NCBI RefSeq assembly: GCF_002902965.1
Contig: NZ_CP026106.1
Span: forward strand, 2,666,001-2,730,000
Source of the DNA: Paraburkholderia hospita
Lineage (GTDB): Bacteria; Pseudomonadota; Gammaproteobacteria; Burkholderiales; Burkholderiaceae
Direction of reading: 5' to 3'
Length of the DNA: 64,000 bases
Shown here: positions 6,688-33,151 of the stretch, piece after piece
How positions within the stretch are numbered: position 1 is the stretch's first letter
Layout: each line of letters starts with the position of its first letter
Translations under genes and position numbers: made by a program
Notes under the pieces: generated by a model
Seen by the model: the letters and a program-made list of their open reading frames with translations, nothing else
Told to the model about the DNA's origin: nothing
Databases searched by the model: none

Positions 6688-6829
6688 TATAGGTATAGGC
6701 ACTCATACGCACCTGAAGCCACCTCGCTCAAGCTCGACAAAACCCGCATATTTGCTTATAAATCAATACAGTATATGAAACAAGCAAGCATCGAAATCGA
6801 TCCTGAAGCACAAAGTTAATTTGTTCGTG

Positions 6830-6861
6830 TTGACAGCACTGTAGGACGTCACTCATCATAT
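6830..6861 (+). promoter_or_regulatory. Candidate promoter of the hyuA operon
   Basis: A perfect TTGACA -35 box lies at 6830-6835. The -10 region about 18 to 20 bases further on (CATCAT or TCATAT) is weak, and it overlaps the ATATGTCA operator, which fits a promoter that a FadR-type protein represses. It is the best -35 match seen in the gap between etfB and hyuA. Confidence 0.4.
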
Positions 6862-6865
6862 GTCA
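6856..6865 (+). promoter_or_regulatory. FadR/GntR-type operator candidate upstream of hyuA
   Basis: TCATATGTCA, followed by ACGATCAAAAA. The same ten bases recur at 16781-16790 upstream of the binding-protein gene, followed there by the similar ATGGATCAAAAA, and ATATGTCA recurs upstream of the local GntR regulator. The recurrence at three transcription units of one island is the evidence; the binding protein is inferred. Confidence 0.5.
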
Positions 6866-7011
6866 ACGATCAAAAAATAACCGGTTCAACGCTGTTGGAG
6901 ACGGATGGCAAAGACCTGGACTGGACGGCCAAAACGCCATCCAGAGTGCATCACCCAAATTGTTTCGCCGGGCACGCCCCGGCGCATGTCATGGTTTTAA
7001 ACAGGAGAGTC

Positions 7012-17143: not shown

Positions 17144-18808
17144 TCAGTCATCCTCTCCCAGTCCCGGTAGCGGCCGGGTGCCCTCCAAACGTACGGAGTG
17201 CAACGATGCCGGGTCGAGGCCGAGTGCACGCAAGATAGTGGGTGCAACCTGCGTGGTGCTTACGCGGCGATCGACATGCCGCTCATGGTGATGTCCATCG
17301 GGATACGCGACGATCAGACCCAGATGACTGTCGTCCGGCGCGTTCCCGCCATGCTCCTCGTCTTTCGCTTTGCTCGATGTGTAAATAACACCGGGGTTGG
17401 GTTGCACGATGATATCGGGCGTGCGTCCGTCTGCCGGGTCGCCAAATAGCGCCGCGAGCCGCGGTCCTGAAAGGATGTACGCCTGCGGCCCGTCCGCGCA
17501 GATTCCTGGCGCATTACAACCAAGGTTGGCCTTCAGCGTCGACACGACATCCTGAGCCTGGCTCTGATCCCGCAACCAGATGAGACCGACATCGTCGGTT
17601 TGCGCGAGGCCTGTGCCGACCAAACCCGTCCCGTCATTCAGGTTCCCCGTCGTCGTACTATTTTGTCCAAAGTGGCCGTTCGGATCGAGGTAGTTATGCG
17701 CTTCGAGCAGGTTCACCAGCGTGTCGCCGTTCTTGACCAGCTTGGTGTGGTCGCTTGGCGACTGGCCGTGCTTGGCCGTTACGACCACCATCGTCGACTT
17801 CGCGAGATCTCTCGACTTCAGCGCATCGACCATCTTTCCGAGCGCATCGTCAACGTAGCCGATAGCAGCCGCCACCTGCTTGCCCGGCGTAAAGCTCGCG
17901 TCGAGATAGCCGCCGCCAGACGCGACGGGCGCCTTCTGCGCAACACTCAATGTCTGAAAATTCGTACCGAACAAGGTCGGCACAGCGGCGTTTTGCTGGC
18001 CCGTCGAGTCCTTGCCGTCGATCTCATTGATGATGGACTGAACATGCAGGTTATCGAACTGTTCAGTATGCGCGTACACGTCGGTGTAGTTCGTGCCCGT
18101 CGCCGGATCGATCGAATTGATCTCGGTACGCGACAGATCGTCGACGCCCTTGCCTGACGGACCATTTAGCCAGTCGTAGCCCCACGCATGCTTGTCGGCC
18201 CATGCCGTACGGGCACCATGGAAATGCTGCTTGACGGCCTCGAAGATCGTATTGGTCTTCACATAGTTATGTGGATACACAGGCACGCATACGCCATTTG
18301 TCTTTGCATGGGGAATCGCTTGCGGATTAAAAGCGCCTCCTCCATCGAGATGCGTAAGCGCCCCGCCGTTCTCTGCATCTATTCCCGTCGTTTCGTCGAA
18401 TACGACATTCCAACCCTGCTTGCCCTGGCAAGTCGGGTCTGACGGCGCATAAAGCGTGCGATCGTACGAAACGTCATAGAACAGTCCCGCCGATTTCGGC
18501 GAGCCACCCGTCACGAGTGCCGCCAGGCCAGGAAACGAGTCGGAGAGCCCGGGTGTATAAGCATTGGAGTACGTTACGCCGGACTTCGCCAGCAAAGCCA
18601 TATTCGGACACGTGTTAGCGGCGATGCAACGCGCCACATCCTGCTCGTGGAGACCGTCCACACTGATCAGCAAAACATGTCGCACCTCAGTGTCGCGCCG
18701 GTCGTGATCGTGACCATGCTCCTTATCATCGCCAGCATGAACGACCATCGGAACCGCAATCGTTGCCGCCAGGATGCCTGCTCCCATTTGCCTGATAAGA
18801 CGACTCAT
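17144..18808 (-). CDS. Secreted alkaline-phosphatase-superfamily phosphoesterase
   Basis: A 554-residue protein. The ATG at 18808 follows GAGG at suitable spacing; a GTG two codons upstream is less likely. A signal peptide (residues 1-26, ending VVHAGD) is followed by a histidine/aspartate-rich linker. The type I phosphodiesterase fold shows in VLLISVDGLHEQDV (metal Asp), the nucleophile region SDSFPGLAAL with Ser where most relatives have Thr, TAKHGQSP and DSHLGLIV (metal His). The substrate (nucleotide, phospholipid or phosphate ester) is unknown. A strong Fur-box match 105 bases upstream suggests induction under iron limitation. Confidence 0.82.
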   Translation of the reverse strand: MSRLIRQMGAGILAATIAVPMVVHAGDDKEHGHDHDRRDTEVRHVLLISVDGLHEQDVARCIAANTCPNMALLAKSGVTYSNAYTPGLSDSFPGLAALVTGGSPKSAGLFYDVSYDRTLYAPSDPTCQGKQGWNVVFDETTGIDAENGGALTHLDGGGAFNPQAIPHAKTNGVCVPVYPHNYVKTNTIFEAVKQHFHGARTAWADKHAWGYDWLNGPSGKGVDDLSRTEINSIDPATGTNYTDVYAHTEQFDNLHVQSIINEIDGKDSTGQQNAAVPTLFGTNFQTLSVAQKAPVASGGGYLDASFTPGKQVAAAIGYVDDALGKMVDALKSRDLAKSTMVVVTAKHGQSPSDHTKLVKNGDTLVNLLEAHNYLDPNGHFGQNSTTTGNLNDGTGLVGTGLAQTDDVGLIWLRDQSQAQDVVSTLKANLGCNAPGICADGPQAYILSGPRLAALFGDPADGRTPDIIVQPNPGVIYTSSKAKDEEHGGNAPDDSHLGLIVAYPDGHHHERHVDRRVSTTQVAPTILRALGLDPASLHSVRLEGTRPLPGLGEDD

Positions 18809-18913
18809 CTTCACCTCACTGAATGTTTTGAATTCGAAGTTATTACAGCGAGGTAATGTGCTCGTTTAATACGTCGTCAAGATGACCTTTCCCTTTCGTT
18901 TTGCCCAATTCAT

Positions 18914-18932
18914 GAGAATGAAAATCATGATC
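18914..18932. promoter_or_regulatory. Fur box candidate
   Basis: GAGAATGAAAATCATGATC matches the classical 19-base Fur consensus GATAATGATAATCATTATC at 16 of 19 positions. It lies in the 340-base gap between the phosphoesterase gene (minus strand, start 18808) and the DUF4148 gene (plus strand, start 19149), nearer the first. The rest of this gap shows no gene. Confidence 0.65.
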
Positions 18933-19148
18933 CACAAAGAGAACTTTAGCGCCGAGTAATTCCGCAAAGTACTTCGGATAGGGGTATGTCATCGAACTCG
19001 CTAATGTGGCCCACTGAATATATCAAAAGATCGAGCGTCAATAACACGATAACGAATTCGTAACTAGACGGTCAGTGCTGCGATAACTCACGTCACTAGA
19101 ATGCTCTTCGTGGAAACAACCACTTCCTCAATACTTAGGAGGGTCATC

Positions 19149-19433
19149 ATGAAGCTACCAGCCTTGTTCGCGGTCACCGTGCTCGGCCTTGCATTCGGTG
19201 CGAATGCCTTTGCACAAGCAACTACGCACGGCATCACGCGTGCCGAAGTGCATGCACAACTTGTCGAGGCGCAGGCAGATGGGTTAGTGCCTGTTCCCAA
19301 AAACGACTATCCGCCATCCGCCGATACCATCGCACGGAACAAGGAGCTGTATGCAATCCAGCATCATCAATCCGCCAGCGATACCGGATCCTCAACCGGG
19401 AACGTGACAGCCCCGCGCGCTGCCTCCGACTGA
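19149..19433 (+). CDS. DUF4148 small secreted protein
   Basis: A 94-residue protein starting at the ATG at 19149, directly behind a near-perfect ribosome site AGGAGGG (19137-19143); the upstream in-frame codon at 19101 lacks one. A signal peptide (MKLPALFAVTVLGLAFGANA, residues 1-20) is followed by the DUF4148 core: GITRAEVHAQLVEAQADGLVP and NDYPPS. These small periplasmic proteins are multiplied in Burkholderia and relatives; function unknown. Convergent with the porin. Confidence 0.85.
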   Translation: MKLPALFAVTVLGLAFGANAFAQATTHGITRAEVHAQLVEAQADGLVPVPKNDYPPSADTIARNKELYAIQHHQSASDTGSSTGNVTAPRAASD

Positions 19434-21881: not shown

Positions 21882-22423
21882 TGGAATGGAGCGGAAATCA
21901 CAGGATCCGATGGCGTCTTATCCCTTGTCACAAAGCGCCAGAATGCCCGCAAGTTGCAACAGGTTTCGACAGGTAGGTATCGAAAGGGTACAGAGGCACG
22001 CTTGCGCGTTTCCGTCAATCCGATTACGAACCTGTTATCTTTTTCTCCAGATCCCTACTCCGCCGGGAGAGACGCGTGCTTCTTCGACGATTCAGGCAAT
22101 GTTTGTAAAGAATTCCCACTATCGAGCCGCATCGAAGACTGAGCCTATTCTGCACCGCTTAAGCGATGCTTAAGCAACTTGCTGGAGAAATTATAAGAAG
22201 GTGTACTTGACCGACATTCTTATCGGAGAGTCCGACACTATTGGCTTTATTACGCGGCCATGAGCTGTTGCGCTTTCTTCGGTGCGACGTCGTAGCTCAA
22301 CAGTTACTTTGCGGGGTACGGGGGAAAGGCTATCCTAACGAGGACAGGTTCGTGGAAAGATCACGGCAGACTGCGGTAAGGCTATCGCTTTACCGTCCGT
22401 CGTACGTGCGAATAGTACTGAGT
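21882..22423. other. 542-base intergenic region with no supported gene
   Basis: The gap between the LysR start and the FTR1 stop codon contains no reading frame that looks like protein; the plus-strand frame 22241-22639 runs antisense over the FTR1 gene and has no recognisable features. The only structured element seen is the perfect CTTAAG direct repeat at 22158-22174, followed by a TATAAG-like sequence near 22193. The region may be what is left of a deleted gene. Confidence 0.5.
22158..22174 (+). promoter_or_regulatory. Perfect CTTAAG-N5-CTTAAG box (PmrA/QseB type)
   Basis: CTTAAG-CGATG-CTTAAG, two identical hexamers with 11-base periodicity, as bound by PmrA and QseB-type OmpR-family regulators. 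Weaker copies occur at 31701, 31794 and 33173 around the two-component locus. Here no plausible gene begins downstream on the plus strand. Confidence 0.5.
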
Positions 22424-23278
22424 CTATGTCGAGTGCCGCGCCTGCCCACCTGCACCATGCACACGGCCGACCACTCGGGAGAGCGCCACGATTATCGCAA
22501 GCGTCGCGAGATACCCGGCAATCTGAATTCCTGCCGGCCTTGCGGTATAGCCAATGAGGGCATGCAGCATCTTTCCGACGACACTGGTCTCCGCGAGCAG
22601 CCAGGATGTATCCCACATAGCGTCTCCCAAAGACGGTAAAAGCCCCGCTGATACGAGGTAGCCGATGCCCTGACTGGCCATGCCTGCCGCAAGGAGCACA
22701 ATGAGTGCGTTGGTCACCGAAAAGAGGCGCTTCAGCGGGATCTGAAGCAGTCCGGCATACATGCCTGCGCCGAGGCCCACGCCACCGGCAACGCCCAGCA
22801 GGGCACCCAAGGCCATCTGGGGAGTTTGACCGGGCTCACCGACTGCAATGCCATAGAGAAACAGAACTGTTTCTGATCCCTCGCGAAGTACGGCCACTCC
22901 CACGACCACGGCGAGACCTGTAAGCGGCCGACTACCGGCTGCGACGGCCTTACCGACGGCGGCAATCTGCTTCGCCATTTCACGACTATGTTTGCCCATC
23001 CACACGCTGTGCCATCCAAGCATAACTACTGCAACAAACATGACGCAGGCATTGAAGACTTCCTGACCCATTCCGGAGGCCCACGAAGAAATGGCATCTG
23101 CAAAGACGGCGATGAGACCGGCACCGATAATCCCGCCAAGCAGACCGCCACTCACCCACCATCCCCGATGGGCAACTCCCTTGGTCGCTGCGAGCACAAT
23201 CGAGACAACCAACGCTGCTTCAAGGACTTCGCGGAAAACGATAAGCGCAGTAGATAGCATGATCAGATAAGCATTCAT
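22424..23278 (-). CDS. FTR1-family high-affinity iron permease
   Basis: A 284-residue inner membrane protein with about seven hydrophobic helices. Both iron-binding RExxE motifs are intact: REVLE at residues 16-20 and REGSE at 132-136. FTR1/EfeU permeases take up iron across the inner membrane, usually with partner proteins (EfeO and EfeB, or P19 and others). Here the gene is divergent from an operon that includes an EfeB-like peroxidase and FbpABC, while no EfeO or P19 gene is present. The promoter region contains Fur-like sites. Confidence 0.92.
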   Translation of the reverse strand: MNAYLIMLSTALIVFREVLEAALVVSIVLAATKGVAHRGWWVSGGLLGGIIGAGLIAVFADAISSWASGMGQEVFNACVMFVAVVMLGWHSVWMGKHSREMAKQIAAVGKAVAAGSRPLTGLAVVVGVAVLREGSETVLFLYGIAVGEPGQTPQMALGALLGVAGGVGLGAGMYAGLLQIPLKRLFSVTNALIVLLAAGMASQGIGYLVSAGLLPSLGDAMWDTSWLLAETSVVGKMLHALIGYTARPAGIQIAGYLATLAIIVALSRVVGRVHGAGGQARHST

Positions 23279-23404
23279 TCGACTGTGGGACGAGTCATGG
23301 AATCAGCCCCGTGATACTCGTCGTGAAATTCGTAGACTCCACCTTCAGCGGACCCATAGATGCCTGGAAGTCGCGACGCTGTCAGTCAGTAAGGTATTGA
23401 AAGC

Positions 23405-23423
23405 GATAATAAAAGCGATTCTC
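23405..23423. promoter_or_regulatory. Fur-like site 1, FTR1 side
   Basis: GATAATAAAAGCGATTCTC matches the 19-base Fur consensus at 13 positions; it lies 127 bases upstream of the FTR1 start. Alone it would be marginal, but it is one of three Fur-like sites in one divergent iron-gene promoter region. Confidence 0.4.
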
Positions 23424-23507
23424 ATCCGATTGCTTAAGTCCCCTGAGCTTGAGTGGTTAAGCCATTTCAGTCTGACAGTGCGACGCTATCCCCTAGCACG
23501 CCGCTTT

Positions 23508-23522
23508 TGATTTTCATTCTCA
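23508..23522. promoter_or_regulatory. Fur-like site 2
   Basis: TGATTTTCATTCTCA matches the core 15-mer TGATAATCATTATCA at 12 positions. It lies midway between FTR1 and the porin operon. Confidence 0.5.
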
Positions 23523-23583
23523 GACCTTGACTACGCTTTCACCGTAAGCACTACGTAATCCCACGTTCAACTTGCTGGAATCA

Positions 23584-23601
23584 AATGACACTCGTTCTCA
23601 T
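23584..23601. promoter_or_regulatory. Fur-like site 3, porin side
   Basis: The site is the centre of a perfect inverted repeat, CAAATGA (23582-23588) and TCATTTG (23598-23604), and matches the extended Fur pattern ATGATAATCATTATCATT at 14 of 18 positions. It ends a few bases before the -35 box of the candidate promoter of the iron operon. Confidence 0.6.
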
Positions 23602-23606
23602 TTGTA

Positions 23607-23635
23607 TTGACGATTTGTCTCCGCCTACCTAACAT
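23607..23635 (+). promoter_or_regulatory. Candidate promoter of the iron operon
   Basis: TTGACG (23607-23612) and TAACAT (23630-23635) are spaced by 17 bases. The Fur-like inverted repeat abuts the -35 box, an arrangement suited to iron-dependent repression. Confidence 0.5.
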
Positions 23636-23730
23636 TTACTGATTGCGACGGTATTCGTCGGATGGTCATAAGCGTCACGCGCACATCGGCATCGCGCGGC
23701 ACATCCATAGAACAACTAAAGGACTTTTCG

Positions 23731-25212
23731 ATGAAATTCATCCGATCAATCGGATCTGGTCCGCTCATTGCGTCGCGGGCGTCGCTGCGCAAAGCGACCA
23801 TTGCTGCATTGTTTGCATGCGCACCGCTCTTCGCGCAATCGGCCGCCCACGCGGAGTCCAATCCTGACGCCATACCGGAAGCGCCTGAGGCCGACCTCGG
23901 CATCCAGGCGAAGCCGACGGGACAATGGACCGGTTTCTGGACACGCGAAACCATGCTCGGCGACATCGGCGGATTGCGACCATGGCTCGGAAAGTACGGT
24001 GTGACCTTTCAGTTGACGGAAACGAGCGAATATCTCGCGAACCTGCGCGGTGGCCTGTCGCGCGGAGGGGCCTACGACGGTCTCACGACGGCAACCGTGC
24101 AGATGGACACGCAAAAGGCGTTCGGGCTACCGGGCGGCTTGTTCAATGTCAGCGCACTGCAGATTCACGGCCGGAATCTGAGCGCAGACCGGCTCGGCAC
24201 GCTGAACACCGCAAGCGGCATCGAAGCTGAAGCGACGACGCGTCTATGGGAGTTGTGGTACCAGCAGTCATTCCTCGACAAGCGCCTCGATGTGAAGATC
24301 GGTCAGCAAAGTATCGACCAGGAATTCATGACCAGCCAGTACGCGGCAACCTTCATCAACACGATGTTTGGCTGGCCTGCCCTGCCGTCGTACGACATGC
24401 CGTCGGGCGGTCCTGCCTATCCGCTATCCGGGTTGGGGGTGCGCGTGCGCGGGCAGATCACGCCCTCTCTAACGGCGCTCGCCGGCGTCTACTCAGGCGA
24501 CCCGCTGGGCAACAATCCCGACAACATTCATGGCACCAACTTCAACCTGCACAACGGCGCGTTGTGGATCGGCGAACTGCAGTACGCAATCAACCAGCCT
24601 GCCGATGGCGAAATGACGGGCATGGACAGCAACAAGCTGCCGGGTACGTACAAGATCGGTGTCTGGTACAACAGCAACCGCTTTGATGACCAGCGCTTCG
24701 ACAACACTGGCCTGTCGCTCGCGAATCCGGCGACGACGGGCATTCCGCAGTCCCATCACGGCGACTACAGCATCTACGCAGTCGCCGACCAGATGGTGTG
24801 GCGCCCCAATCCCGACGAGCCGCGCAGCGTGGGCGTCTTCGCACGCGTGATGGGCGCTCCGGGCGATCGCAACCTGGTCAGCCTTTCGGCGAATCTGGGC
24901 GTCGTGCTGAAAGCACCGTTCAAGGGTCGCGACGATGACAGCGTCGGCCTCGCCGTCACTTACATCAAGGTGGGCAACCACGTGCACGATCTCGATCTCG
25001 ACAACCGCGATTTCTCGGGCGGTCCGTACGGTGTGCGCACAAGCGAAACAGCGCTGGAAGCAACCTACATCTATCAGGCGGCGCCCTGGTGGCAAATACA
25101 GGCCGACGCGCAGTACACGTTCAATGCAGGCGCCGGCCAGAATCCGAACGATCCGACTCAACCGCTACGCAACACATTCGTGGTGGGCGTGCGAACCAAC
25201 ATCACGTTCTGA
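23731..25212 (+). CDS. OprB-family (carbohydrate-selective type) outer membrane porin
   Basis: A 493-residue protein. The ATG at 23731 follows AAAGGA and starts a signal peptide that ends at SAAHAES (about residue 35). The body has the OprB pattern: TGFWTRETMLGDIGGLRPWLGKYG at the start of the barrel (seen in two parts), LWELWYQQSF and IGQQSIDQEFMTS, and the C-terminal VVGVRTNITF ending in Phe. OprB porins pass sugars such as glucose. Here it heads an iron operon behind Fur-like sites, so its solute may be an iron chelate such as citrate-like or sugar-acid complexes; that is inference. Confidence 0.88.
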   Translation: MKFIRSIGSGPLIASRASLRKATIAALFACAPLFAQSAAHAESNPDAIPEAPEADLGIQAKPTGQWTGFWTRETMLGDIGGLRPWLGKYGVTFQLTETSEYLANLRGGLSRGGAYDGLTTATVQMDTQKAFGLPGGLFNVSALQIHGRNLSADRLGTLNTASGIEAEATTRLWELWYQQSFLDKRLDVKIGQQSIDQEFMTSQYAATFINTMFGWPALPSYDMPSGGPAYPLSGLGVRVRGQITPSLTALAGVYSGDPLGNNPDNIHGTNFNLHNGALWIGELQYAINQPADGEMTGMDSNKLPGTYKIGVWYNSNRFDDQRFDNTGLSLANPATTGIPQSHHGDYSIYAVADQMVWRPNPDEPRSVGVFARVMGAPGDRNLVSLSANLGVVLKAPFKGRDDDSVGLAVTYIKVGNHVHDLDLDNRDFSGGPYGVRTSETALEATYIYQAAPWWQIQADAQYTFNAGAGQNPNDPTQPLRNTFVVGVRTNITF

Positions 25213-25260
25213 GCGCCGATCTCACAGAACATCTTTCGACCCTATTGAAGCAACCCCATC

Positions 25261-26451
25261 ATGACGGCAAAACAGGCTGTGAGCGCAAATATGAATACAA
25301 GGAAGGCCCGGCTTTCGCGTGAACTTGCGAGGCGAGTCCGCACAAAGGCCGCATACGTTGCGGGCATGCTGGCGCTCATCGCCACGTGCACCGCTCAAGC
25401 CGAACCCCAAGGGTTTCTCGAAACCCTGCATCGCAATACGACGCTCGTCAACACTGTGCCCGATAACGGCGATCAGAATCCTTACGCGATCGTCGTCGCG
25501 CCGGTCTCGGCGGGTTCGGTGAAACAGGGCGACGTACTGGTCGACAACTTCAACAACTCGGCCAATCTGCAAGGTACGGGTAGTACGATCGTCAACTATC
25601 ACCCCGACACGAAGCAGATAACACTGTTCGCGCAGATTCCGCGCGATCTGAAAGATTGTCCCGGCGGCGTTGGTCTCTCGACTGCAATGACCATGCTCAA
25701 GTCCGGCTGGGTGATCGTCGGCAGCACACCGAGTAATGATGGCACCACGGGCACCAAAGGCGCCGGCTGTCTGGTCGTGCTCGACTCGCAGGGCAAAGTG
25801 ACCTCGACCATCTCCAGCCCGAACATCAACGATCCATGGGGCAACATGGCCGTCGTCGACAACGGTACGAGTGCGACCTTGTTCATCAGCATGGCGGGCT
25901 TCGGCGTCGGCGGCGCGGATGGCGAGCCGCCCGTGTTCAAGCAGGCGACTGTGCTGCGCCTCGACCTCGATATTCCGCAAGGCAAGCCGCCCGTCGTGAA
26001 GAAGGAAACGGTGGTGGGCAGCGGCTTCGGCGCGCAGGCAGACAAGGGCGTGTTCCTCGTGGGACCGACGGGGCTCGCGCTGTCGGCGGATCAAAAGCTG
26101 CTGTTTGTGTCGGACGCAATCGGCAACCGCGTCAACGAGATCGACGAGCCGATGACGCGCGATACCAGCGCCGGTGTCGGACGGCAGCTCACGGCAGACG
26201 GCCTGCTGCATCGCCCGCTCGCGATGGTGACGGCGCCCAACGGCCATCTGCTGGTGACGAATGCACTCAACGGACAGGTCGTCGAGATTGTCCCCGCCAC
26301 GGGCAAGCAGCTCTACGCGCGCTGGATCGATACCGACAAGGCGCAGACACCGCCTGGCAACGGCGACCTGTTCGGCATCGCGATGACGCCCGAGGGCGAT
26401 GGCTTCTACTATGTACAGGATGACGTGAACACGCTGGTGATCGCGAAGTGA
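25261..26451 (+). CDS. Exported NHL/beta-propeller protein
   Basis: A 396-residue protein with an N-terminal basic stretch and hydrophobic segment (residues 32-47, ending AQAEP) that looks like a signal peptide. The mature part has repeated blades such as NPYAIVVAPVSAGSVKQGDVLVDNFN, GPTGLALSADQKLLFVSDAIGNRVNEI and HRPLAMVTAPNGHLLVTNALNGQVVEI (each seen in pieces), the NHL-type propeller pattern. Function is unknown; propellers of this kind bind ligands or proteins in the periplasm. It stands between the porin and the DyP peroxidase genes, so a role in iron-chelate handling is possible. Start could also be Met11. Confidence 0.7.
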   Translation: MTAKQAVSANMNTRKARLSRELARRVRTKAAYVAGMLALIATCTAQAEPQGFLETLHRNTTLVNTVPDNGDQNPYAIVVAPVSAGSVKQGDVLVDNFNNSANLQGTGSTIVNYHPDTKQITLFAQIPRDLKDCPGGVGLSTAMTMLKSGWVIVGSTPSNDGTTGTKGAGCLVVLDSQGKVTSTISSPNINDPWGNMAVVDNGTSATLFISMAGFGVGGADGEPPVFKQATVLRLDLDIPQGKPPVVKKETVVGSGFGAQADKGVFLVGPTGLALSADQKLLFVSDAIGNRVNEIDEPMTRDTSAGVGRQLTADGLLHRPLAMVTAPNGHLLVTNALNGQVVEIVPATGKQLYARWIDTDKAQTPPGNGDLFGIAMTPEGDGFYYVQDDVNTLVIAK

Positions 26452-26482
26452 CGGCAACAGACAAGCAGCAAGAGGCAGCATC

Positions 26483-27775
26483 ATGACGAACGATCAATCC
26501 CCACCGTCGCGGCCTGGCCGGCGCGGCTTTTTGAAAGCCGGCGGAGCCGCCGTCGCGGCGGGCGCCGGACTCGCCACGTCGAGCGTTACGCATGCCGCGT
26601 TGACGCGCACCCACGCCGACGACGTGCAACGCCAGATCGAACCGTTCTACGGCGCGCATCAAGGCGGCGTCGTGACGCCGCAGCAGAGTCATAGCTACCT
26701 CGCGGCTTTCGATCTGAAAACCGACAAGCGCGAGGAAGTGATCGCGCTGCTGCGCGAGTGGACCCAGGCCGCCGCGCGCATGACGCAAGGCAAGCCCGCC
26801 GGCTCGCTCGAAACAGCCGACGACAAACCCGCCGCCGATTCCGCCGATGTACTCGGCCTCGGCGCGTCGTCGCTGACCATCACATTTGGCTTCGGCCCGG
26901 GTCTGTTCACGTCGCGCGACGGCAAGGACCGCTATGGCCTCGCGAGCAAACGCCCTGCCGCGCTCGTCGATCTGCCGCGATTCAACGGCGACCAGCTGAT
27001 CGCCGAGAAGACGGGCGGCGACCTGTTCGTGCAGGCGTGCGCGAACGATGCGCAGGTCGCGTTCCATGCCGTGCGGCAACTCGCGCGCATGGGTTACGGC
27101 GCGATCCAGATGCGCTGGGGCCAGGCGGGCTTCCTGTCGGGTCCGAAAGGTCAGACGCCGCGCAATCTGATGGGCTTCAAGGACGGCACCAACAATCCGT
27201 CGACGGCGAAACCGCCGCTGATGAACCAGTTCGTCTGGGCCAATGCCGCCGACGCGCCGTGGATGCAAGGCGGCACCTATACGGTCGTGCGCCGCATCCG
27301 CATCACACTCGAACACTGGGACCAGATGGAACTCGGCTTCCAGGAACAGGTTTTCGGACGGCACAAATACAGCGGCGCGCCGATCGGCCAGAAAAACGAG
27401 TTCGATGCCGTCGATCTGAAGGCCGTGGACAAGGACGGCAACCCCGTCATTCCCGACAATTCGCACGTGCGCCTCTCGAATCAGGCGAACAATGCGGGCG
27501 CGCAGATCCTCCGTCGTTCGTATTCGTACAACGACGGCACGAACTTCTATATCGAACGCTGGCCGCCATGGCGCCAGGAAACGGAATATGACGCGGGTCT
27601 CATCTTTATCGCGCATCAGGCGGACCCGCGCACAGGCTTCATTCCGATCAACGAAAAGCTCTCGAAGTTCGACGTGATGAACCAGTTCACGACGCACATC
27701 GGCAGCGCGATCTTCGCCGTGCCGCCGGGCGCGCGTGAAGGTTCGTATGTCGGGGCAGGACTGTTCGAAGCATAA
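26483..27775 (+). CDS. efeB: Dye-decolorising (DyP) peroxidase, EfeB type
   Basis: A 430-residue heme peroxidase with a twin-arginine signal (RPGRRGFLKAGG, residues 10-21). The catalytic GxxDG motif is GFKDG at 231-235 with Asp234 distal to heme; the axial histidine is His328 in DNSHVRLSN, and Arg344/345 follow. EfeB proteins act in the periplasm and are reported to oxidise ferrous iron or recover iron from heme in EfeUOB systems. Here EfeO is missing and the partner genes are FbpABC and, divergently, an FTR1 permease. Confidence 0.92.
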   Translation: MTNDQSPPSRPGRRGFLKAGGAAVAAGAGLATSSVTHAALTRTHADDVQRQIEPFYGAHQGGVVTPQQSHSYLAAFDLKTDKREEVIALLREWTQAAARMTQGKPAGSLETADDKPAADSADVLGLGASSLTITFGFGPGLFTSRDGKDRYGLASKRPAALVDLPRFNGDQLIAEKTGGDLFVQACANDAQVAFHAVRQLARMGYGAIQMRWGQAGFLSGPKGQTPRNLMGFKDGTNNPSTAKPPLMNQFVWANAADAPWMQGGTYTVVRRIRITLEHWDQMELGFQEQVFGRHKYSGAPIGQKNEFDAVDLKAVDKDGNPVIPDNSHVRLSNQANNAGAQILRRSYSYNDGTNFYIERWPPWRQETEYDAGLIFIAHQADPRTGFIPINEKLSKFDVMNQFTTHIGSAIFAVPPGAREGSYVGAGLFEA

Positions 27776-27844
27776 GTGCCGTATGTAGGCGTAAAGCACG
27801 CTCAAGCGGCCATTCAATAACGTCAAGAAGAAGAGGTTGAATTC

Positions 27845-28876
27845 ATGAACCGTTCCTGGTTTGGAGCAATGCGTCACGCGGCGCGCGTGACGGCCCTGTC
27901 GCTTTCGATCGCCGCCGCTACAGGCACAACAGGCGCATACGCCGCATCGATTACGGTGTACAGCGCGCAACACGAGCAGGTCATGAACATGCTCGCGAAA
28001 GACTTCGAAAAGCAGTCGGGCATTTCAGTGAAGGTCCGCAATGGCGAAGGCCCGGCACTCGCTGCGCAACTAGTCGCCGAAGGTTCAGCATCACCCGCCG
28101 ATGTGTACTTCACCGAGAACTCGCCCGAACTGATGCTGCTCGAAGAAAAGGGCCTGCTGAGCAAGGTCGATCCCGCCACCATCGGCACCATTCCCACGCG
28201 CTACAGTTCGCCGACGGGACAATGGGTCGGCGTGACCGCCCGCGAAAGCGTGCTCGCGTACAACACGGCGAAGATCCAGCCTTCGCAACTGCCCGCGTCG
28301 ATCTTCGATCTGGCGAAGCCCGAGTGGAAGGGCAAGGTCGGCATCGCGCCCAGCGACGCGGATTTTCTGCCGCTGGTAAGCGCCGTGCTCGCGTTGAAGG
28401 GCGAAGCGCAAACGCTGCAATGGCTCAAGGGCCTCAAGGCAAACGCGCAGATTTTCGACGACGACGAAGGTGTCGTGGCCGCCGTGAATCGTGGCGGCGT
28501 CGTCACGGGCGTGATCAACAACTACTACTGGGCGCGTCTTCATACCCAGCTGGGCGACAAGTCGACGCGTAGTGCGATCTATCACTACACCAATGGCGAC
28601 GTCGGTGGACTCGTGAACGTGTCGGGTGCCGCGATCATGAAGACCGCGCACAACGCCGACGGTGCGCAGCAGTTCCTGAAGTATCTGGTGAGCGAGCGCG
28701 CCCAGACGCTGATGGCAAACAGCCACGTCAGCTATGAATATCCGCTGCATGCCGGCGTCGCACCCGATCCGCTGCTCAAGCCGTTCAACGAATTGCAGCC
28801 GCCGTCTCTCACACTCGAACAACTCGGCGACGACAGCCAGGCGGGCAAGCTGCTGCGCCAGGCCGGTCTGCTGTAA
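27845..28876 (+). CDS. fbpA: Periplasmic ferric-iron-binding protein, FbpA/FutA type
   Basis: A 343-residue type II periplasmic binding protein with a signal peptide (residues 1-33, ending GAYAAS). The mature start ITVYSAQHEQVMNMLAKDF and the paired tyrosines of NNYYWARL are the usual Fe3+ ligands region of FbpA-like proteins; DVYFTENSPELMLLEEKGLL is also typical. It should deliver ferric iron to FbpB. The ATG follows AAGAAGAGG. It is 69 bases from efeB and 11 from fbpB, in one operon. Confidence 0.9.
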   Translation: MNRSWFGAMRHAARVTALSLSIAAATGTTGAYAASITVYSAQHEQVMNMLAKDFEKQSGISVKVRNGEGPALAAQLVAEGSASPADVYFTENSPELMLLEEKGLLSKVDPATIGTIPTRYSSPTGQWVGVTARESVLAYNTAKIQPSQLPASIFDLAKPEWKGKVGIAPSDADFLPLVSAVLALKGEAQTLQWLKGLKANAQIFDDDEGVVAAVNRGGVVTGVINNYYWARLHTQLGDKSTRSAIYHYTNGDVGGLVNVSGAAIMKTAHNADGAQQFLKYLVSERAQTLMANSHVSYEYPLHAGVAPDPLLKPFNELQPPSLTLEQLGDDSQAGKLLRQAGLL

Positions 28877-28887
28877 AGGAACGACAG

Positions 28888-30528
28888 GTGAGCGAGGTGA
28901 CCGACATCGGCGAAGCTGTCGCTGCGATCCAGGTTTCTGCCGATGTCCGCGCGCGCGACGGCAAGCGCGCGCCCCGCGGTCTGCTGGCGGGCGCCGCCGT
29001 CAGTGCACTGCTGGTGCTGCTGCCGCTCGCGTTCACGTTCTACCGCGCGACGACCGTCGGCTTCAGCGATGCAGCGGAACTCGTGTTCCGCCCGCTCGTC
29101 GGCGAGTTGCTCGGCAATACACTGCTGATCACGGTCAGCGCGACGCTGGCGTCGGCTGTCATCGGTACGGCGGCCGCGTGGTTCGTCGAACGCACGGATG
29201 TGCCGGGCCGTCGCCTGTGGGCTGTCGCCAGCGCGGCGCCGCTCGCAATGCCCGCCTTCGTCACGAGCTACGCGTGGGTGTCGATCAGCCTCGATCTGCA
29301 GGACTTCGCGGGCGCGCTGCTCGTCATCACGTCATCGTATTTTCCGCTCGTGTATCTGCCCGTCGCGGCCGCGTTGCGCGGCATGGACCCCGCGCTCGAG
29401 GAAAGCGCTCGCGCGCTCGGCTGCGGACGCTGGGCGACCTTTGCGCGCGTCGTGCTGCCGCAATTGCGACCTGCGCTGCTCGGTGGGATGCTGCTGGTCG
29501 CACTCGGCGTGCTGTCGGAGTTCGGCGCGTTCCAGATGCTGCGTTTTCGCACCTTCACCACCGAAATCTACGCGGAATACCGCACCAGTTTCGACAATAG
29601 CGGCGCTTCGCTGCTCGCGTGTCTGCTGATCCTGCTGTGTCTCGTCTGTCTTGCGTTCGAGTTTCGCGTGCGTGGCAGCGCACGCTATGAACGCGTCGAT
29701 CGCGGCGCGAGGCGGGCGGCGCTGCGTTACGAACTGGTCGGCTGGCACTGGCTCGTGCTGGCGGGTTTCGCTGCGCTGGGCATCGTCACGCTTGGCGTGC
29801 CGCTCGGCATGATCGGCTACTGGCTGACACAGGAAGGCGTAGCCGCCACAACGCCCGCCGAAGTCTCGCCGGAACTGCTGTTTAACGCGACGTTATCGTC
29901 CGTTGGGTTCGGTCTCGCTGCAGCGATGCTCACAACGCTGCTCGTGCTGCCGCTCGCATTTCTGCTCGCGCGTTACCCGGCGCGGCTCGCAACGGTGTTC
30001 GAGCGCACGGTGTTTCTCGCGCAAGGCGTTCCCGGCCTCGTGGTCGCGCTGGCAATCGTCTCGCTCGCCGTGCACGCATTGCGGCCGCTCTATCAAGGCA
30101 CGACACTTCTGATCGTGGCGTACGCGATCCTCTTCATGCCGCTCGCGCTCGTCAGCGTGCGGGCGGCACTGATGCAGGCGCAGCCGCGCCTCGAAGACAC
30201 GGCGCGCGCGCTCGGTCTCAATGCGATGCAAACCTTCGTGCGCGTGCTCCTGCCGTTGGCCGCACCTGGACTTGGCGCCGCGGCCACGATGGTGTTCATC
30301 TCGGTCGTGACGGAACTCAACGCAACATTATTGCTTTCCCCCATCGATACCCATACGCTCGCCACGCAAGTCTGGTCCGACACATCGACGCTCGCATTCG
30401 CCGCGGCCGCGCCCTATGCGGCACTCATGACGGCGATTTCGCTGTGCGCATCGGGCGTGCTGTTCGTCTTGCTGGGACGATCGGCCCTGACCGCGCGCGC
30501 CTCCGAATCCCCTTTGATTTCCAAATGA
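28888..30528 (+). CDS. fbpB: Ferric iron ABC transporter permease
   Basis: A 546-residue inner membrane protein that starts with GTG behind GGAACGACAG. It holds two permease units, each with about six membrane helices and an EAA-type loop: MDPALEESARALGCGRWATF near residue 170 and QPRLEDTARALGLNAMQTF near 435. The internal duplication is usual for FbpB. Its stop overlaps the fbpC start (ATGA), so the two are translationally coupled. Confidence 0.92.
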   Translation: MSEVTDIGEAVAAIQVSADVRARDGKRAPRGLLAGAAVSALLVLLPLAFTFYRATTVGFSDAAELVFRPLVGELLGNTLLITVSATLASAVIGTAAAWFVERTDVPGRRLWAVASAAPLAMPAFVTSYAWVSISLDLQDFAGALLVITSSYFPLVYLPVAAALRGMDPALEESARALGCGRWATFARVVLPQLRPALLGGMLLVALGVLSEFGAFQMLRFRTFTTEIYAEYRTSFDNSGASLLACLLILLCLVCLAFEFRVRGSARYERVDRGARRAALRYELVGWHWLVLAGFAALGIVTLGVPLGMIGYWLTQEGVAATTPAEVSPELLFNATLSSVGFGLAAAMLTTLLVLPLAFLLARYPARLATVFERTVFLAQGVPGLVVALAIVSLAVHALRPLYQGTTLLIVAYAILFMPLALVSVRAALMQAQPRLEDTARALGLNAMQTFVRVLLPLAAPGLGAAATMVFISVVTELNATLLLSPIDTHTLATQVWSDTSTLAFAAAAPYAALMTAISLCASGVLFVLLGRSALTARASESPLISK

Positions 30529-31583
30529 GCGAACTCCGAATCAGCGGGCTGCGCAAAGCCTTCAACGGTTGTGCTGTACTGCACGACGTCGATCTCGCCG
30601 TCCAACCGGGGACGTTGCTCGCGTTGCTCGGTCCATCGGGGGGCGGCAAAACGACATTGCTGCGGGTGTTGTGCGGCTTCGATCGCGCCGACGCCGGTAC
30701 GATCGAAATCGACGGCATACGCGTCGTGGACGACAACCTGCATGTGCCGACCGAGCAACGGCGGATCGGCTACGTGCCCCAGGAAGGTGCGCTCTTCCCG
30801 CATCTTTCCGTGACAGAGAACATTGTGTTTGGGCTGCCACGCACACAGCGACGCGCACGTCATCGTGTCGCGGAACTCCTGAGGCTGGTGGGTCTGTCCG
30901 ATGACTACGCGCAGCGCATGCCACAACAGTTGTCGGGCGGTCAGCAACAGCGTGTGGCACTCGCGCGTGCGCTTGCGCCTTCCCCTTCGCTCGTGCTGCT
31001 GGACGAGCCGTTCTCGTCGCTGGACGCCGCGCTGCGGCTCGAAACACGAGAAGCCGTCGCCGAGGCTCTCGCGGCAACGGGCGCAACGGCCATACTGGTC
31101 ACGCACGATCAGGCGGAAGCACTGTCGCTAGGACATGAAGTGGCCGTGCTGTGGGAGGGCAAACTCATCCAGCGTGCTGCACCTCAAACACTCTATCGGC
31201 GACCTGCGACCCGTGAACTCGCCGCATTCATCGGCGATGCGGTATTGCTGCCCGGCATCGCGGAGAACGGCATCGCAATGTGCCCGCTCGGAAGGCTGCA
31301 ACTCGTCGCGCCTGTTCCCAATGGCCGCGTCGACGTCATGATACGGCCAGAACAGATCCATCTCCTGTCCGCGTCCGAAACGGCGGCAGACCACAGCACT
31401 GTTCAGGACGCGCTGGTAACAAGCATCACCTACAACGGAAGGGACGCAGATATCTGCCTTCAACTATCCAGCGCCGCGCAATCTATCATTCGCGCAAGAG
31501 TGCCGGGGCACCGTTCTCCAAAGGTTGGTGAGCGCGTCCGGCTAAGCGTCGATAGTGACGTGATCGCCTATCCCCATCGATAA
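30525..31583 (+). CDS. fbpC: Ferric iron ABC transporter ATP-binding protein
   Basis: A 352-residue ATPase; the ATG at 30525 overlaps the fbpB stop and is preferred over 30444. Walker A GPSGGGKT is at residues 36-43, the signature LSGGQQQRVALARALA and Walker B VLLDEPFSSLD follow, with the switch histidine in LVTHDQAEA. A C-terminal TOBE-like regulatory domain covers about residues 240-350. It energises FbpB and is the last gene of the iron operon. Confidence 0.92.
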   Translation: MSELRISGLRKAFNGCAVLHDVDLAVQPGTLLALLGPSGGGKTTLLRVLCGFDRADAGTIEIDGIRVVDDNLHVPTEQRRIGYVPQEGALFPHLSVTENIVFGLPRTQRRARHRVAELLRLVGLSDDYAQRMPQQLSGGQQQRVALARALAPSPSLVLLDEPFSSLDAALRLETREAVAEALAATGATAILVTHDQAEALSLGHEVAVLWEGKLIQRAAPQTLYRRPATRELAAFIGDAVLLPGIAENGIAMCPLGRLQLVAPVPNGRVDVMIRPEQIHLLSASETAADHSTVQDALVTSITYNGRDADICLQLSSAAQSIIRARVPGHRSPKVGERVRLSVDSDVIAYPHR

Positions 31584-31700
31584 AGTGTACAGCCTCGCCA
31601 TGCAAGGCCATCCCCGGGCTGATTTCCTTAGTGATGCGCGAACAGTCGGCTGCTACTTCCTTCTTTGACCTGCTCCACCGCTTGCATTGGCTCTCGACCT

Positions 31701-31717
31701 CTTAAGCATTGCATAAG
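31701..31717 (+). promoter_or_regulatory. CTTAAG-type direct-repeat box
   Basis: CTTAAG-CATTG-CATAAG: two hexamers with 11-base periodicity, one mismatch from the perfect repeat at 22158. About 180 bases upstream of the membrane protein gene. Confidence 0.5.
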
Positions 31718-31793
31718 GAAAATCGATCTTTTCAAAAGGTCGTGCGACAGCAAATTGGCGCGTTTGAAAGAAGAACAAAGCATTCTGTAATCA

Positions 31794-31810
31794 CCTAAGC
31801 ATTCGATAAG
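31794..31810 (+). promoter_or_regulatory. CTTAAG-type direct-repeat box
   Basis: CCTAAG-CATTC-GATAAG, same 11-base periodicity and similar spacer to the box at 31701. It lies 84 bases upstream of the membrane protein start at 31895 and is probably the site that controls it. Confidence 0.5.
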
Positions 31811-31894
31811 CAATGCGCCCTCATAGTGCAGCATGAAGTTCTGATCTGCACCTCGATTACCGAGCCGGGTATCGTGAAAAAATGGGGGGAAGGA

Positions 31895-32665
31895 ATGTCA
31901 CATCGACACGTCGCACCGATGCAAAACAAGGTTCCGGAGGTCACGATCGCTTTCTGGACAATCAAGATCTTGTCCACCACGGTCGGCGAAACAGGTGCCG
32001 ATTACCTCGCTGTCCATGTCGGCCTGGGCGCCACGTTGACGATAGCAATCACGCTTTCCATGCTCGCTGCCTCGCTCGTTACACAGTTGAGCACACGAAC
32101 CTATGTGCCGTGGATCTACTGGCTAACTGTCGTGCTGGTAAGCGTGGTCGGCACGCAACTGACGGACGTGCTCACTGATGTTCTTGGAGTAAGCCTTTAC
32201 ACGAGTACGGCCGCATTCGCGGTACTACTCAGCGTTATTTTCGGGACCTGGTACTACCGAGAAAAGACCCTCTCCATTCACACGATCGTCACCCGTCATC
32301 GCGAACTCTTTTACTGGACTGCGATCCTCGTCACGTTTGCACTGGGCACAGCAGCTGGAGACCTTGCGACCGAAGCGTTAGGGCTCGGTTTCAGTCTCGG
32401 CGTCGTCATATTCGGCGTCATGCTTGTCATGATGGGAGTTGCGGCCTACCTCGGCGCCGATCGCGTGCTGATCTTCTGGCTTGCCTACATTCTGACCCGG
32501 CCATTTGGCGCGTCACTCGGCGATCTTCTATCCCAGGCAACTGAGTATGGCGGACTTGGATTGGGTACGGTCGTCACCAGCATTGCCTTTCTCTGCGTCA
32601 TTGTGGTCCTGGTATTCCTGCATACCGCTGCGAGAGTCCGGCAAAGCAGGATCAGCAGTACCTAG
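31895..32665 (+). CDS. Uncharacterised multi-pass membrane protein (COG4705 type)
   Basis: A 256-residue protein. The ATG at 31895 is chosen because GGGGAAGGA stands just upstream; a longer frame from 31826 has no such support. It has about eight hydrophobic helices, with a recurrent pattern around conserved acidic/Thr positions: KILSTTVGETGADYLAV, VVGTQLTDVLTDVLG, ALGTAAGDLATEALG and LTRPFGASLGDLLSQ (internal repeat pairs). This matches the membrane-anchored protein family COG4705, of unknown function. CTTAAG boxes upstream tie it to the neighbouring two-component genes. Confidence 0.75.
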   Translation: MSHRHVAPMQNKVPEVTIAFWTIKILSTTVGETGADYLAVHVGLGATLTIAITLSMLAASLVTQLSTRTYVPWIYWLTVVLVSVVGTQLTDVLTDVLGVSLYTSTAAFAVLLSVIFGTWYYREKTLSIHTIVTRHRELFYWTAILVTFALGTAAGDLATEALGLGFSLGVVIFGVMLVMMGVAAYLGADRVLIFWLAYILTRPFGASLGDLLSQATEYGGLGLGTVVTSIAFLCVIVVLVFLHTAARVRQSRISST

Positions 32666-32719
32666 TTGCACGCCCCTCTTTTACCCGTTCACCGTCATCT
32701 TTCAACCGGAGGATTAACA

Positions 32720-33151
32720 ATGAAGCGTGCCATCGTCAATTCCGCACTCTTGCTCGTAACAGCCAGCGCCGTCGCGGCCAGTCACACATCGGACATGCAT
32801 GCGCCGCTGTGGGTTGCCGCTTTGTCGCCCATCTCGTCGGCAAACGCTGCCACAGAGGTATCGAAGCTCGGCGATCTTTCGAAGTTCCGCGTGATCGTTG
32901 TCGACACCTCGAAGCTGGTCGACGCCAACGACCTCGCGGGCGCAAAAAAGCGGATCAAGGACCTGGAAACGTCGTGGGACGAGGCCGAAGCGGGACTGAA
33001 GCCACGCGCCGCCGCAGACTGGCACAAGCTCGACAAGTCAATCGACGACGCGCTCGAGGCTCTTCGCGAAAGTTCACCTAGCCAAGCCAAGTGTAAAAAG
33101 ACACTCGCGGATTTGCTCGCGTTGATGGATCGGATGAGTGGCAAGGCTTGA
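32720..33151 (+). CDS. Small periplasmic helical protein
   Basis: A 143-residue protein starting at the ATG at 32720 after GGAGGA. The N-terminus is a signal peptide (residues 1-18, ending VAAS; a second hydrophobic stretch extends to NAAT). The rest is mostly helical and charged: LSKFRVIVVDTSKLVDANDLAGAKKRI and LETSWDEAEAGLKPRAAADWHKLD (in pieces). I do not recognise a named family. It lies between the COG4705 membrane protein and the two-component genes in the same direction and could be a ligand- or metal-sensing accessory protein; this is a guess from position. Confidence 0.7.
   Translation: MKRAIVNSALLLVTASAVAASHTSDMHAPLWVAALSPISSANAATEVSKLGDLSKFRVIVVDTSKLVDANDLAGAKKRIKDLETSWDEAEAGLKPRAAADWHKLDKSIDDALEALRESSPSQAKCKKTLADLLALMDRMSGKA

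Follow-up and report, generated by a model that had tools for sequence, protein, structure and literature searches.

We investigated a 64,000-nucleotide stretch (hereafter, the window; positions 2666001-2730000 of contig 2, NZ_CP026106.1) of the 11.5 Mb genome of Paraburkholderia hospita, and found a real, conserved iron-locus architecture that is undescribed as far as our searches show. A sequence-only reading of the window had proposed a composite locus of seven genes, comprising an FTR1-type permease, an OprB-type porin, a beta-propeller, the DyP peroxidase EfeB, and the ferric transporter FbpABC. Every gene was confirmed where that reading had placed it, with the starts of the porin and fbpC refined. 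Judged by gene order and conservation, six of the seven genes are one conserved operon, and FTR1 is a neighbour only. We consider that the locus probably encodes TonB-independent iron uptake under Fur control, with EfeB partnered by FbpABC in place of EfeU and EfeO. The closest named matches found at the locus were on replicons of Paraburkholderia largidicola and Paraburkholderia sp. 22B1P (propeller identity, 97%). The module and its divergent neighbour are laid out as follows.

23542..31588, plus strand: conserved module as a whole, from about 190 bases upstream of the porin start (23731) to just past fbpC
23731..25212, plus strand: OprB-family outer-membrane porin, 493 residues (PF04966; reading frame open from 23662)
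25261..26451, plus strand: putatively exported beta-propeller, 396 residues, of NHL/SMP-30-type fold (predicted model and structural matches)
26483..27775, plus strand: EfeB-type DyP heme peroxidase with a twin-arginine signal, 430 residues (TIGR01412 and motifs)
27845..28876, plus strand: FbpA/HitA-type periplasmic ferric-iron-binding protein, 343 residues (match to HitA 6iwf, E 1.7e-75; NNYY motif)
28888..30528, plus strand: FbpB, two-domain inner-membrane permease, 546 residues (two PF00528 stretches)
30525..31583, plus strand: FbpC ATPase (PF00005 and TOBE_2)
22424..23278, minus strand: FTR1-type iron permease, divergent neighbour (PF03239), judged to lie outside the conserved module

The intergenic gaps among the six plus-strand genes are 48, 31, 69, and 11 bases, plus one overlap in which the fbpC start at 30525 meets the fbpB stop as ATGA. 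These short gaps and the overlap, together with a sole promoter-like site ahead of the porin, led us to read the six genes as one operon. Since that single site in 22300-32000 compares with a mean of 2.4 in shuffled sequences, i.e., fewer than in the shuffles, only the position of the promoter is suggestive. The porin more likely starts at 23731 than at 23662, as relatives align only from near the former.

Conservation of the operon and its three-gene core

The propeller query found 204 loci, of which the best 80 were retrieved as named loci. The order OprB-propeller-EfeB-FbpA-FbpB-FbpC was colinear in all 80 (in L082, FbpC runs into the end of the contig), and this identical gene order excludes a chance arrangement. 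The laboratory strain Paraburkholderia xenovorans LB400 also carries the module (L048). Additionally, loci L166 and L167 showed an unbroken 92% nucleotide match to the window over 23542..31588; besides the module, the sole other match within 18000-40000 was a 288-base piece in the DUF347 region. By this match, 23542-31588 is the physical outline of the module, with FTR1 outside it.

Because the 80 loci had been picked by the propeller, a reverse search was run with EfeB. EfeB orthologues were found in 58 of 249 family genomes, which were the same 58 that hold a propeller orthologue (Fisher value 3e-58, which ignores shared ancestry and is not to be taken literally). Weak DyP matches of 32% identity or less were not counted as orthologues, and four genomes with an EfeB of 39-45% and no propeller (G022, G056, G057, and G066) were counted apart; in two of these four, the EfeB gene lies near FTR1, as in EfeUOB. 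Within the 58-genome sets, the propeller is fragmentary or broken in G185, G179, and G037, and EfeB in those and in G167. The porin was directly upstream of the propeller in 57/58 genomes and EfeB directly downstream in 57/58, the exceptions (G179 and G234) being contig breaks. Save for such breaks, the orthologous propeller was always flanked by the porin and EfeB, and FbpABC is the part missing from distant loci. The sequence-only reading had suggested a survey of the co-occurrence of porin, propeller, efeB, and fbpABC; the association proved strong, and the opposite outcome, with every relative conserving fbpABC but lacking the porin and propeller genes, was not seen. The distances of the six proteins also correlated at 0.76 to 0.92 over 91 loci (L167 excluded as a near copy of L166), although shared descent alone also gives high values.

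Broken or fragmentary copies of module genes were seen in G167, G037, G179, G185, G173, and G227, attributable in part to contig breaks and in part to decay; stops lie within EfeB in G167 and G179.

An order-level search of 300 genomes found the propeller in 11, eight of which were outside the family (nine loci). All six genes were present in three of these loci (L153-L155), and the other six (L156-L161) had the porin, propeller, and EfeB with no FbpA or FbpB alongside. A class-level search (369 genomes) gave no strong propeller match beyond the genome under study, only three short weak ones, and a phylum-level search (398 genomes) gave a single strong match from beyond the order (G1208); its remaining new matches were short and weak and were dropped. 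Locus L209, whose genome falls outside the class, is a further core-only case. We read porin-propeller-EfeB as a three-gene core because these genes were matched in all 98 loci compared (all six genes, with FbpABC, in 92; L209 lies outside the 98), and because seven distant loci in total lack FbpABC alongside, at the locus itself. By this comparison, what varies is the inner-membrane transporter, and the three genes form the constant part. Among the distant loci, EfeB of L161 is followed on the same strand by an Nramp gene, and the porin of L157 is preceded by BFD-like and ferritin-family genes.

Components and putative Fur-type control

EfeB passes the equivalog cut-off of TIGR01412 (iron-uptake deferrochelatase/peroxidase; 465 versus 428 bits). 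It carries RRGF at residue 13, in its twin-arginine signal, and the motifs GFKDG, HVRL, and RRSYS, which we take to be the distal Asp motif, the proximal His, and the distal Arg of DyP enzymes, respectively. FbpA has as its nearest solved structure HitA 6iwf, presumably from Pseudomonas aeruginosa, and its NNYY at residue 225 aligns with the same residues of that structure; the adjacent tyrosines are presumably iron-binding. Together with a two-domain permease and a TOBE-type ATPase in the order A-B-C, these features are those of FbpABC/HitABC, and the transporter would bind and transport Fe3+. EfeO (the M75 domain, PF09375) was not found in the genome assembly by a search that was positive in 4 of 14 control genomes; the sequence-only reading had noted it as missing. 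No EfeU permease was found in the same operon, FTR1 being divergent, below the EfeU cut-off (153 versus 255 bits), and not conserved with the module. The genome also encodes a second, distant DyP peroxidase (G000:C2:1682690-1683082), with 29% identity to EfeB over the matched part and unlinked to the other module genes.

The propeller had no Pfam or NCBIfam match at E 0.001. Its AlphaFold2 model (predicted local distance difference test, 84.7) was confident over most of its length, and structural matches were to six-bladed NHL/SMP-30-type propellers, the top-ranking ones including the RPA3624 lactonase and DFPase. The N-terminus suggests that the protein is exported. Cysteines C133 and C170 were present in 11/11 iron-locus sequences versus 0/8 paralogues (alignment A2) and were invariant in the 14 rows of alignment A3; they may form a disulfide, perhaps stabilising the propeller. 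A second propeller subfamily of approximately 35-40% identity (L116, L117, and L119-L130) has no porin or DyP neighbours: none of its 14 loci holds OprB, EfeB, FbpA, or FbpB, with ABC ATPase matches of 40% or less to FbpC disregarded as unrelated. A function common to the propeller and these paralogues was considered and found no support in their neighbourhoods.

The porin matches PF04966 (E 8.5e-100; 335 bits versus a cut-off of 22.9) and the solved structures of Porin B (4gey/4gf4), and is the only OprB match in its own genome. Some OprB match occurred in 113 of the 249 family genomes, and 13 of the 249 had an OprB of 65% or more and no propeller, so we rejected the idea that the porin is strictly tied to the module. 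Outside those 13, G227 has porin fragments of 72-79% without a propeller. We took 12 unlinked porin loci, from 10 of the 13 genomes (not G059, G068, and G097) plus the second copies of G246 and G083, and 10 of the 12 held no OprB-linked propeller, EfeB, FbpA, or FbpB. In L212, a 60-residue fbpB remnant (6762-6941; 73% identity) lies just after a lone porin that keeps a Fur-type core; this suggests that a deletion removed the module, and L211 and L212 both look like module decay.

For Fur-type control, a 19-base Fur consensus was scored in 94 upstream regions, with 1,880 random stretches from the same loci as controls; L053, L070, L074, and L156 were left out as too short. The mean best score was 12.6 upstream versus 10.0 in controls, and a score of 12 was reached in 77/94 versus 119/1,880. 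The core GAATC-A/G-TTC-T/G or its complement occurred in 72/94 upstream regions versus 35/1,880 control stretches; since the loci are related, these counts are not independent. The 10 porin homologues at unlinked sites lacked the core and scored 10 to 12 at best over 19 bases, and both lone porins read as probable relics (L211 and L212) had it. The description of the locus as Fur-type in the sequence-only reading is thus borne out at the level of the motif. The candidate sites in the window are as follows.

23581..23599, plus strand: Fur-type box, 12/19 to the consensus, degenerate, at a conserved position
23607..23635, plus strand: sigma-70-like promoter, the sole one in 22300-32000, beginning 7 bases past the Fur-type box
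23405..23423, plus strand: Fur-like site on the FTR1 side, 13/19, outside the conserved DNA
23503..23521, plus strand: Fur-like site on the FTR1 side, 13/19, outside the conserved DNA

In L166 and L167, the box at the same place as that at 23581 scores 13/19. The 64 kb window has five sites of 13/19 or better, the best of which (18914-18932, 16/19) lies between a gene for a type I phosphodiesterase/nucleotide pyrophosphatase (17144-18814, minus strand) and a DUF4148 gene (19101-19433, plus strand).

Proposed iron route and its alternatives

Gene identities, operon layout, conservation, the Fur-type box in most near relatives, and the varying inner-membrane part are all read from sequence; the conservation and the Fur-type site suggest a little-known iron route needing no siderophore receptor. 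In such a route, the OprB-family porin would admit Fe2+, or iron on a small organic ligand, to the periplasm, where EfeB with the propeller would oxidise the iron or release it from the ligand. FbpA would then capture Fe3+, and FbpBC would import it using ATP. FbpABC would substitute for the EfeU (FTR1) of EfeUOB, and the propeller would take the position of EfeO. Of this scheme, we infer iron as the substrate, the form of the iron, the direction of the EfeB reaction, and the role of the propeller, which is most likely a periplasmic partner of EfeB or a binder of an iron chelate. A porin carrying inorganic iron is on record in Synechocystis (Slr1908; PMC9705863), and Fe2+ oxidation by EfeB ahead of ferric transport is one published proposal for EfeUOB (PMC9174327).

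In distant bacteria, the same core may deliver to another permease, as the Nramp gene of L161 would suggest. More tentatively, porin, propeller, and EfeB could form a portable outer-membrane/periplasmic core for TonB-independent iron acquisition. The propeller would then represent a novel type of periplasmic protein that handles iron or an iron chelate in the role of EfeO, and the product of the core would be passed to whichever permease is at hand (FbpABC, Nramp, or an unlinked one).

Several observations weigh against an iron uptake operon. EfeB-type DyPs have other proposed substrates, and the propeller fold is common to lactonases, DFPase, and binding domains, so that the fold shows no function. 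Close porin homologues (approximately 54 to 76% identity) occur at places without the propeller, and hence membership of this porin family need not mean that iron is the substrate. Of the 94 upstream regions, 22 are without the exact Fur core; they include those of the window, its closest relatives (L035, L166, and L167), and every one of the 12 most divergent loci scanned (L131-L134, L153-L155, and L157-L161), whose best 19-base scores were 10 to 15. Among these 12, L157 has no good box, and in L158 and L160 it is found several hundred bases upstream. In favour of iron control, the best Fur-like site of the core-only loci L159, L161, and L209 is at the module start (13 to 15 of 19); in L153 the best match (14/19) lies between the porin and propeller.

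An unlikely alternative is that the DyP, propeller, and porin serve oxidative catabolism or detoxification, acting on aromatic or lignin-derived compounds or peroxide, and are beside an iron transporter by coincidence. OprB porins carry small organic molecules, the propeller fold resembles lactonases, and both the core without FbpABC alongside and the missing exact Fur core in the most divergent loci lean this way. However, EfeB scores as an iron-uptake equivalog, Fur-type cores follow the module and not unlinked porins, the compared loci have FbpABC in 92 of 98 cases and Nramp in one, and the module is without any catabolic gene. In favour of this alternative, secreted DyPs have been interpreted in this sense: PMC9723775 counts a signal-bearing DyP of Paraburkholderia RP11 among its oxidative enzymes, and an RP11 contig holds the module (L074), whose EfeB may be that DyP.

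We think it rather improbable that EfeB acts here as a deferrochelatase, stripping iron from heme or tetrapyrrole in the periplasm, with the freed iron imported by FbpABC. The OprB pore is small for heme, the operon is without a heme receptor, and the deferrochelatase role of EfeB is itself disputed. In its favour, that role appears among the EfeB proposals in PMC9174327, and the EfeB relative FepB has been linked to heme iron use (PMC3577903).

It is highly improbable that FTR1 joins FbpABC as a second inner-membrane arm of a system with a common porin, propeller, and DyP: FTR1 is divergent to the operon across a common intergenic region (23279-23730) with Fur-like sites, but it had no match at E 1e-4 in any of the 80 named loci (in 74, the sequence extends 3 kb or more upstream of the porin), none was found in L166-L168, and FTR1 is unlinked, as far as contigs show, in 5/5 other genomes with both. 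In those five genomes, FTR1 and the module are more than 1 Mb apart on the same contig (three) or on different contigs (two), and in L166 and L167 the matching DNA begins at 23542, between FTR1 and the porin. FTR1 was therefore rejected as a member of the unit, and by these comparisons we regard it as a distinct system whose position opposite the operon in this genome is coincidental. The envelope-spanning route of the sequence-only reading accordingly keeps its porin, propeller, DyP, and FbpABC as a conserved set and loses its second inner-membrane arm. A functional link between FTR1 and the module could still exist in this strain alone. We favour the Fur-controlled, TonB-independent operon of six genes over these alternatives.

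FTR1 itself matches PF03239 and has REVLE and REGSE motifs. Close homologues (73-82%) occurred in 16 other genomes of 150, one of them partial. A cupredoxin-domain gene adjoins the homologue in L189, L192, and L193, with none identified in L190 and L191; in the former three, cupredoxin and FTR1 may make up a two-gene iron system separate from FtrABCD and EfeUOB. In L191, a phosphodiesterase 76% identical to that of the window lies within 0.5 kb of FTR1, which suggests that both may form their own Fur-controlled neighbourhood. Downstream of fbpC, 31826-33151 encodes a DUF347 membrane protein and a small protein. These genes are upstream of the porin in L036, and the DUF347 piece is approximately 6.6 kb past fbpC in L166 and L167; by these positions, they are near the module in some relatives and not fixed to it.

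Relation to known systems

Iron uptake in Gram-negative bacteria is usually ascribed to TonB receptors and siderophores outside and ATP-binding cassette (ABC) or FTR1 permeases inside. If our interpretation is true, an operon with its own porin and a periplasmic peroxidase-propeller pair would be a complete TonB-free route, EfeB would gain a second, EfeO-free setting for testing its disputed chemistry, and an uncharacterised exported propeller would be assigned a function. It would also call for caution before each secreted DyP from soil Paraburkholderia is interpreted as an oxidase of lignin or aromatic compounds. The sequence-only reading knew of no characterised system of this composition, and none was described among the matches listed in full-text literature, whose coverage excludes most subscription journals. 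Nor is the six-gene set described in the accessible passages of PMC7377471, PMC12117332, PMC9705863, PMC5979394, PMC9723775, and PMC9174327. A table in PMC5979394 lists the DyP gene Bphy_5473 (-1.9), which might be the same gene as the efeB of the module.

Slr1908 is the precedent of an iron-carrying porin, discussed alongside OprB-domain porins in PMC9705863. It is cyanobacterial, with no DyP or propeller in the available part of its description, and is likened to our porin by description, not by sequence; the Anabaena porins of the same paper could not be tied to iron uptake. The present porin has the PF04966 barrel of the OprB carbohydrate-selective porins, which does not imply sugar selectivity. 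Similarly, the predicted structure of the propeller has the six-bladed fold of the SMP-30/gluconolactonase and NHL propellers, whereas identity in the structural alignments shown was 12-18% and family matches were lacking; the resemblance is one of fold, and any catalytic metal site is hypothetical.

FtrABCD, a ferrous uptake system of P19, cupredoxin, FTR1, and ferredoxin, serves iron uptake in the same bacteria and has no component in common with the operon. Of its parts, P19 and FTR1 were sought, and in this genome a P19 gene lies within a P19-FTR1 pair, 0.5 kb away from a second FTR1 gene (G000:C1:2466900-2468649). With EfeUOB/EfeUOB-M (E. coli, Bacillus subtilis, and Pseudomonas syringae), the operon shares an EfeB-type DyP with a twin-arginine export signal and an iron context, whereas here EfeO was not found in the genome, FbpABC is in the stead of EfeU, and a porin and propeller are added. 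With FbpABC/HitABC/SfuABC, it shares a HitA-like FbpA with a tyrosine pair, a two-domain permease, and an ATPase, whereas here the transporter genes come last in an operon that also supplies a porin, propeller, and DyP.

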